DNA of 64,000 nucleotides, taken from positions 22,732 through 86,731 of the forward strand of contig DAIDGR010000017.1 of the NCBI GenBank assembly GCA_027452265.1. Direction: 5' to 3'. This document shows, in pieces, positions 5,824 to 64,000 of this stretch; position 1 is the first letter of the stretch, and each line of letters opens with the position of its first letter. Source of the DNA: Caulobacteraceae bacterium (GTDB taxonomy: Bacteria; Pseudomonadota; Alphaproteobacteria; Caulobacterales; Caulobacteraceae). The notes under the pieces were generated by a model that worked only from the letters and a program-made list of their open reading frames with translations, made no database searches and was not told where the DNA came from. Both the position numbers and the translations under genes were made by a program.

Positions 5824-5967
5824 GAAAGAACCTCGCGGTTGGACGTGACACGTCACCGCGAATGAGACGCCTCCCCGCCGCGCCGGCGCCCATCTGGGTC
5901 GCCCGCCCGCCAGCTTGGTCGTCCGCCTCGGCTCACCCCGTCCGACGCGTTCGCGCGTGACCACGGC

Positions 5968-6165
5968 GTGTGGCAGGTCTCCTGGCTCACGGGTCACTGC
6001 CTTCGACCGGCCTTCCCAGCCCGCGAGGGACCAGTGGCGCGCAAGGGTCTTCAGGCTCGCCGCTCACAGTTGCGGGGGCAGCCGCGGGTTTGATGGGGCC
6101 CAAAAGTCGAGGCCCGTTTCGCACCGCGTTCCCTATTAATCCCTTTCGGGAGCCACGCCGCGAGG
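5968..6165 (-). promoter_or_regulatory. Cobalamin riboswitch upstream of btuB
   Basis: Minus strand contains GCTGCCCCCGCAACTGTGAGCGGCG, GCCACTGG...GGGAAGG, and B12-box GTGAGCCAGGAGACCTGCC; 5' CCCGAAAGGGATTAATAGGGAA. Confidence 0.93.
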
Positions 6166-6182
6166 TGCGCCCCAAACGCGCC

Positions 6183-22888: not shown

Positions 22889-23004
22889 AAGAGCACGATG
22901 CGCTTTCGCGGACCGGGCGAAGCGTTGAATCGGGCTCTCTCTTCAAATTCCTGAGCGTGCGGCGACCCCCCTTATGGGTTCGGCCGCAAGGCAAGGCGCT
23001 CAAG
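22889..23004. repeat. Degenerate full-length copy of the ~118-bp double-hairpin repeat
   Basis: aagagcacgatgcgctttcgcgga..gaagcgttgaatcgggctct..cttcaaattcctgagcgtgcggcg...gcaaggcgctcaag aligns end to end with the 63735 copy. Confidence 0.65.
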
Positions 23005-42904: not shown

Positions 42905-43022
42905 CTAGAGCGCGTTGCGTTTGTACGGAACCAACCCGGCGCTTCGCAACGCGCTCAGGAACCTAAAGATAGAGCACGATTCAGCGTCTTCGCCGATTCC
43001 ACGAAAACGCATCGTGCTCTAG
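42905..43022. repeat. 118-bp CTAG-bounded double-hairpin repeat, copy 1
   Basis: ctagagcgcgttgcg...cgcaacgcgctc...gagcacgattcagcg...atcgtgctctag; about 110/118 identical (hand count) to inverted copy at 63735. Confidence 0.95.
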
Positions 43023-61529: not shown

Positions 61530-61644
61530 GTCCGAGCAAAAGGCGTATTGGTGGAGGCGGCGAAGGCGCCGAATTGTCCGGTGTCGTCTCGCCCTTGCGC
61601 GTCTTGCGAAACGCCGGGCTGATCCCGTCCAGGCGCAACGCGGC

Positions 61645-63281: not shown

Positions 63282-63353
63282 TCAGGCCCAGATCAGGCCC
63301 ACGTCAGGCCCACGTCAGGCCCACGTCGGGCCCACGTCAGGCCCACGTCAGGC
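63282..63353. repeat. Tandem repeat, 11-bp unit TCAGGCCCACG, about 6.5 units
   Basis: (c)tcaggccca-ga, tcaggcccacg x3, tcgggcccacg, tcaggcccacg, tcaggc read directly. Confidence 0.95.
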
Positions 63354-63599
63354 AATGAGATCGGGGGTCAAGGTGGCGGCCAGCACGGTGATCTGATCCT
63401 TGATCAGAAGTTTGCGCTTCTTCAGTCGGGCGAGCTGGAGCTGATCGGTCTGTGGTGCGTCCTGCAGGGCTGTGACCGCCGCCGAGAGGTCGGCGTGCAG
63501 CTCACGCAAGCGCTCCAGCTTGCGCCGGGTCTCCGCCTCCGTGGCGCCTTCGATCTCGCTGTCGTCCATGCCCGGCCAGATGTCCTCAAGCGCCGCCAT
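63348..63599 (-). CDS. YdcH/DUF465-like small coiled protein
   Basis: ETRRKLERLRELHADLSAAVTALQDAPQTDQLQLARLKKRKLLIKDQITVLAA; start at 63599 or 63569. Confidence 0.85.
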   Translation of the reverse strand: MAALEDIWPGMDDSEIEGATEAETRRKLERLRELHADLSAAVTALQDAPQTDQLQLARLKKRKLLIKDQITVLAATLTPDLIA

Positions 63600-64000
63600 G
63601 ACCAAGCTTAGACCCGGCGGCGGCGTCTGACCAATCGGCGAGCGCCGAGAGATGTCCGGCAAGCGCGGTGGGGTCGCCCTGGGCGCCATAGGCTCGCACG
63701 GCCTCCGCCAGGGCGTCGATCAGCGTCGTCGGGGCTAGAGCACGATGCGTTTTCGTGGAATCGGCGAAGACGCTGAATCGTGCTCTTTCTTGAAGTCCTT
63801 GAGCGCGTTGCGAAGCGACGGGCTGGTTCCGTTCAAACGCAACGCGCTCTAGTCCCCCAGGCGCATCCGCCAGGGGAAGGCGGGCCAGATCTTCCAGAAG
63901 GCCTCGCTCGACCTCGATTTCCCGGTCGAGAGCCCGCGCGCGAGAGGCTCCCGCCGCGAGGGCCCGACGTTCAGCGCGCAGAGGACGAAGACGGTGGGTC
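63586..64000 (-). CDS. Partial helical protein of unknown function with in-frame repeat insertion (5' end outside window)
   Basis: 138 codons including stop, open from window edge: THRLRPLRAERRALAAGASRARALDREIEVERGLLEDLARLPLADAPGG-[LERVAFERNQPVASQRAQGLQERARFSVFADSTKTHRAL]-APTTLIDALAEAVRAYGAQGDPTALAGHLSALADWSDAAAGSKLGHGGA. Confidence 0.7.
   Translation of the reverse strand, partial: THRLRPLRAERRALAAGASRARALDREIEVERGLLEDLARLPLADAPGGLERVAFERNQPVASQRAQGLQERARFSVFADSTKTHRALAPTTLIDALAEAVRAYGAQGDPTALAGHLSALADWSDAAAGSKLGHGGA
63735..63852. repeat. 118-bp CTAG-bounded double-hairpin repeat, copy 2, inverted relative to copy 1
   Basis: ctagagcacgatgcgttttcgtggaatcggcgaagacgctgaatcgtgctct...gagcgcgttgcg...cgcaacgcgctctag. 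Confidence 0.95.

Follow-up and report, generated by a model that had tools for sequence, protein, structure and literature searches.

A two-hairpin palindromic element with CTAG ends lies in frame within protein-coding genes of a Caulobacteraceae bacterium

In this study, we have analysed a 64,000-nucleotide stretch of DNA (the window) from a Caulobacteraceae bacterium whose genome is available as a 2.73-Mb draft in 117 contigs; position 64000 is the end of contig C17. On the minus strand, a single open frame of 137 codons runs from 63999 to 63586, ends with the TGA at 63586-63588 and spans an entire 118-bp repeat, as the original prediction had described and as translation confirmed. The repeat (63735..63852, minus strand, both CTAG included) is a two-hairpin palindromic element, and its putative target-site copies, assigned from the sequence and the matching-ends test described below, are a 5' CTAG (63849..63852) and a 3' CTAG (63735..63738), both on the minus strand and 114 nt apart as foreseen; the net insertion is 114 bp, or 38 codons. 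The surrounding gene (63586..64000, minus strand, 138 codons including the stop) is the 3' part of a TIGR02444/DUF2390 gene, as judged from orthologues and a contig overlap. Its last 14 nt are overlapped by the start of a small minus-strand gene (63348..63599), supported by its translation and conserved neighbour, which we take to be ydcH-like because the name YdcH was recognized from the sequence. Between this gene and the next minus-strand gene lies an 11-bp tandem repeat, TCAGGCCCACG, of 6.5 copies (63282-63353), and elsewhere in the window there is a cobalamin riboswitch on the minus strand (5955-6172; 110 bits versus a cutoff of 31.5).

The window contains three further copies of the element. 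A near-identical copy on the plus strand (42905..43022) contains no stop in this frame either, as had been proposed, but it is intergenic, and its CTAG provides the TAG with which the adjacent minus-strand gene ends. Two old, diverged copies lie on the minus strand at 22891..22999 (60 bits) and at 61534..61642 (57 bits), the latter between convergent gene ends.

The gene that was expected upstream of the window edge is present: its 5' part is at the end of contig C116, the last 141 bases of which are identical to the window end. Joined by this 141-base overlap between two contigs of one draft genome, the gene encodes a 213-aa protein from a TTG start (near C116:59011) that matches TIGR02444/DUF2390 (Pfam E 3e-18; NCBIfam E 2e-14); the partial 137-aa frame alone gave zero Pfam matches. 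The gene follows ubiX and precedes the ydcH-like gene, and both neighbours are on the same strand in 28/29 orthologous loci of relatives. In the DUF2390 frame the element reads LERVAFERNQPVASQRAQGLQERARFSVFADSTKTHRAL, a 39-residue stretch that is absent from all 29 orthologues recovered from relatives; those orthologues that extend beyond the insertion site, which is a variable linker in the alignment, align on both flanks. The sequence after the insert aligns to the conserved C-terminal helix region (ALAEAVRAYG / AL..A..AWG), and therefore the region downstream of the repeat is coding, in agreement with the prediction that orthologues would lack the insert and still be homologous beyond it. 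The open frame is not due to chance, since upstream, on C116, it runs on into a gene with orthologues that span the sequence on either side of the repeat.

Codon statistics gave a divided answer: the frame was favoured downstream of the copy (+20.7) and in a 240-base window, but it was not favoured in the 150 bases immediately upstream (margin, -7.9). This weak signal, together with the occurrence of the insertion in a single genome, would be compatible with a decaying pseudogene in which the frame is open by luck. We consider such decay very unlikely, because neither flank contains a stop or a frameshift, the ubiX-DUF2390-ydcH order is conserved in relatives, and the same exact 38-residue insertion is found in two further genes.

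Those genes belong to a set of at least three with internal in-frame copies, namely, DUF2390, an N-formylglutamate amidohydrolase (PF05013, C2:1313) and an acyltransferase (PF01757, C110:13720), and they bear out the expectation that the element peptide would occur inside other conserved proteins. The amidohydrolase reads GYMNEPAGPL[38]DAATWPTPFDPDRAA versus GYMDEPAGPPTPETWPSPFDPDRAA in a relative, and the acyltransferase reads PPL[38]GGPLHRALMKLGDAS versus PPLAGFPHRILTLLGDAS. Both are conserved genes with the insert in a variable linker, and their closest orthologues are short by exactly 38 residues at the site. A codon score against base composition was dropped, since it did not discriminate at 69% GC; competition among all six frames, run on all copies with no frame presupposed, recovered the same internal cases. 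The same competition led us to discard, as shadow frames, the long stop-free frames that cross other copies (298 aa at window position 42905, 427 aa at C30 and 398 aa at C116:25312). When the amidohydrolase was modelled with its insert in AlphaFold, the mean pLDDT was 86 and exceeded 90 over most of the fold; values below 50 were confined to residues 243-274, within the insert, which was followed by an intact C-terminal helix. The model fits a tolerated, disordered loop.

It can be envisioned that a repeat was wrongly joined into these genes during short-read assembly, given that the assembly has 117 contigs and that several of them end near copies; however, three unrelated genes continue in frame on both sides with exactly the expected change in length, and the in-gene copies bear their own copy-specific variants, so that an artefact of this kind is highly improbable.

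Other copies touch the ends of genes. Three genes, encoding a BBP2 porin (with two copies in tandem), an S9 peptidase and a TadE-like protein, carry copies at their N-terminal leaders; these cases are weaker, because the true start codon may lie downstream of the copy. Genes that end inside a copy include those for citrate synthase and a PGI-like protein, which gain tails of the ERVAFGRNQPGASQRAQGL type, and RibF, which gains a C-terminal EHDAFSWNRRSR in place of the few different residues with which its orthologues finish. Many further copies supply an adjacent gene with its stop codon, the TAG of CTAG.

Genome-wide there are about 80 copies (80 protein-level and 47 DNA-level matches), and a profile search of the fetched regions gave 83; most are between genes. 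The consensus consists of two hairpins and a 15- to 17-nt linker, and RNAalifold recovered two arms with 26 pairs. The 3' arm has two GANTC sites, kept in 52/69 and 49/69 full copies, the middle base of the second varying freely; GANTC is nine times denser in the element (0.0163 per base) than in the fetched genome sequence (0.0018). The ends of the element, AGAGCGCGTTGCG and AGAGCACGATGCG, resemble one another. In a search that covered PF01609, the only transposase locus of that family in the genome lacked element-like ends, and no Rfam family matched the element in the window. Tandem arrays with a 113- to 115-bp period were observed at L061 (C65:13610-13840), L083 (C15:1-337), L084 (C76:283-514) and L062 (C41:58418-58648). 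Adjacent copies within them share roughly the four bases of their ends, as though each new copy had landed in the end of an older one.

The four-base ends have the consensus CTAG and are generally CNNG (CTAG, CTGG, CCGG, CGAG, etc.), although they are degenerate in many copies. Among the 71 non-tandem copies to which the matching-ends test was restricted, 16 had identical 4-base ends versus 5.1 expected, a number reached in none of 20,000 shuffles. With copies carrying a CTAG end excluded, the full 4-mer match was weaker (10 versus 4.2 expected; P = 0.004), and where neither end was CTAG, the inner two bases matched in just 11 copies versus 7.8 expected (P = 0.13). As judged from sequence, the matching is consistent with a 4-base target duplication at CNNG, a feature of MITEs (small nonautonomous transposons). 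Each insertion would therefore add 110 + 4 = 114 bp, or 38 codons. An empty site agrees, in that CCC-CTAG-GCGG encodes P-L-G-G, which resembles P-L-A-G in an orthologue. The proposal that a CTAG duplication would preserve the frame is thus upheld by the exact 38-residue gaps and by the excess of matching ends.

The reading frames of the element differ in their stops. The coding frame contains a stop in 45/62 copies outside genes, mostly TAA at codon 19, and in none of the seven in-gene copies (Fisher P = 0.0003). Frame +1 is open in 24/69 full copies, and two other frames are open in 65/69, yet they are closed by the TAG within the CTAG end. Since every in-gene copy is intact in frame and stop-free, the added peptide might be considered useful to its host proteins and retained by selection; the original prediction spoke of exaptation. 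The in-frame location in a gene stands, but usefulness finds less favour than neutral tolerance: only stop-free copies fit inside genes, and their lack of stops is consequently a survival filter, no proof of function, as an intact frame is expected merely from the removal of broken genes. Furthermore, the inserts occupy variable linkers and are predicted to be disordered, the proteins that carry them are unrelated, and relatives manage without them. Exaptation is therefore very unlikely.

The observations as a whole are best explained by a mobile two-hairpin element whose insertion is frame neutral (114 bp) and which is tolerated in genes; we put the probability of this reading at roughly 0.88, on the strength of sequence comparisons. 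We infer that the element transposes, that the inserts are translated and that they are neutral. A nonautonomous palindromic element would be copied into CNNG sites, most often CTAG, with duplication of the four bases, and because 114 bp is exactly 38 codons, the host frame would survive. The codon phase at the target would then determine which element frame is translated. With the phase C|TAG, a stop codon is supplied by the element's own end, which accounts for the many copies that abut gene 3' ends. Where the phase is CTN|GAG, translation of the element would give LERVAF..., with most copies stopping at codon 19 to leave a short tail and stop-free subfamilies being read through to add 38 residues. 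In the DUF2390, amidohydrolase and acyltransferase genes, stop-free copies would have landed in variable linkers, where they are tolerated as an extra loop, probably a disordered one.

Relatives of the same genus and family carry divergent, genome-specific versions of the element with CTAG at most of their ends, and no convincing internal insertion was found among the 59 copies examined (30 loci and 29 copies of genome G064). Matched elements in relatives differ in length, mostly from 108 to 121 nt, and for that reason frame neutrality is no rule of the family. Genome G064 (e.g., L220-L249) has about 40 similar 106-bp versions, a net 102 bp or 34 codons; one frame is open in nearly all of them, and none of those examined is clearly in a gene. 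In the part of the Caulobacter vibrioides genome that was covered, a related 113- to 118-bp two-arm CTAG repeat was seen, in copies without GANTC, and a degenerate pattern and an RNA model of the element matched little in this species. Related two-hairpin CTAG repeats with different arms are present there at L347:8656 and L362:12827 and 16960, and one such repeat appears to begin at the TAG that terminates a gene.

Palindromic elements that keep the frame are best known from Rickettsia and Wolbachia, whose decaying genomes offer an easy explanation. The Bru-RS of Brucella and RIME of Rhizobium are two-palindrome intergenic repeats of about 100 bp from alphaproteobacteria, and by description the element is like them. 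The in-frame behaviour itself is already established, for the Rickettsia palindromic elements (RPE) that had been named as a parallel and for REP sequences (PMC2229807, PMC3733652). According to a 2007 review, RPE (Ogata et al. 2000) are palindromic mobile repeats of 105 to 146 bp, found in frame in unrelated conserved proteins to which they are tolerable or slightly harmful (PMC2229807). In behaviour, the element resembles them in its in-frame insertion into conserved genes with insert-free orthologues; however, RPE have one hairpin and another host group, whereas the element has two arms, GANTC sites, a putative CNNG target duplication and a mostly intergenic location. GTAG/CGTC REP units of 20 to 40 bp often give a neighbouring gene a TAG stop with their ends, and some copies are in frame in genes, with reported coding sizes of 20 to 82 residues (PMC3733652); they share with the element the donated stop and the occasional in-gene copy but lack its two-arm, 118-bp form.

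The original prediction knew of no named equivalent, but a close named relative by description is found in the CIR1-4 repeats (Chen and Shapiro 2003), which two reviews present as CcrM-associated intergenic repeats of Caulobacter (PMC2229807, PMC10969869). Among named families, CIR resemble the element most closely in their published description: both are about 110 bp long with two long hairpin arms and a linker, have GANTC sites in one arm and a TA dinucleotide at both termini, and occur in many, mostly intergenic copies in alphaproteobacterial genomes. The 2007 review reports that CIRs were not found in gene interiors and have multiple stops in all six frames (PMC2229807), the 2024 review calls them strictly intergenic (PMC10969869), and their target duplication is given as unknown in the reviews. 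By these accounts, CIR are out of genes with closed frames, whereas the element has in-gene copies, several open frames and matching four-base ends. In the literature searched, which includes few subscription papers, there was no description of this element family in genes or of its insertion arithmetic. It is possible, if doubtful, that a CIR-like lineage gave up an intergenic existence for one compatible with genes and that a stop-free subfamily has lately multiplied in genes and at their ends; a frame-neutral unit of 114 bp, together with a linker in which codon 19 is CAA or AAA and no longer the stop TAA, may have opened coding sequence to it.

In conclusion, behaviour of the Rickettsia type is now seen in an alphaproteobacterium from a different group, with a genome of 2.7 Mb, in a case that offers simple arithmetic (110 + 4 = 38 codons), a signature of matching ends and orthologues that compare cleanly. 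Should the element prove to be a CIR, it would contradict the view of the reviews that CIRs stay out of genes. The enzymes concerned are well defined and would allow the cost or benefit of the inserts to be measured.
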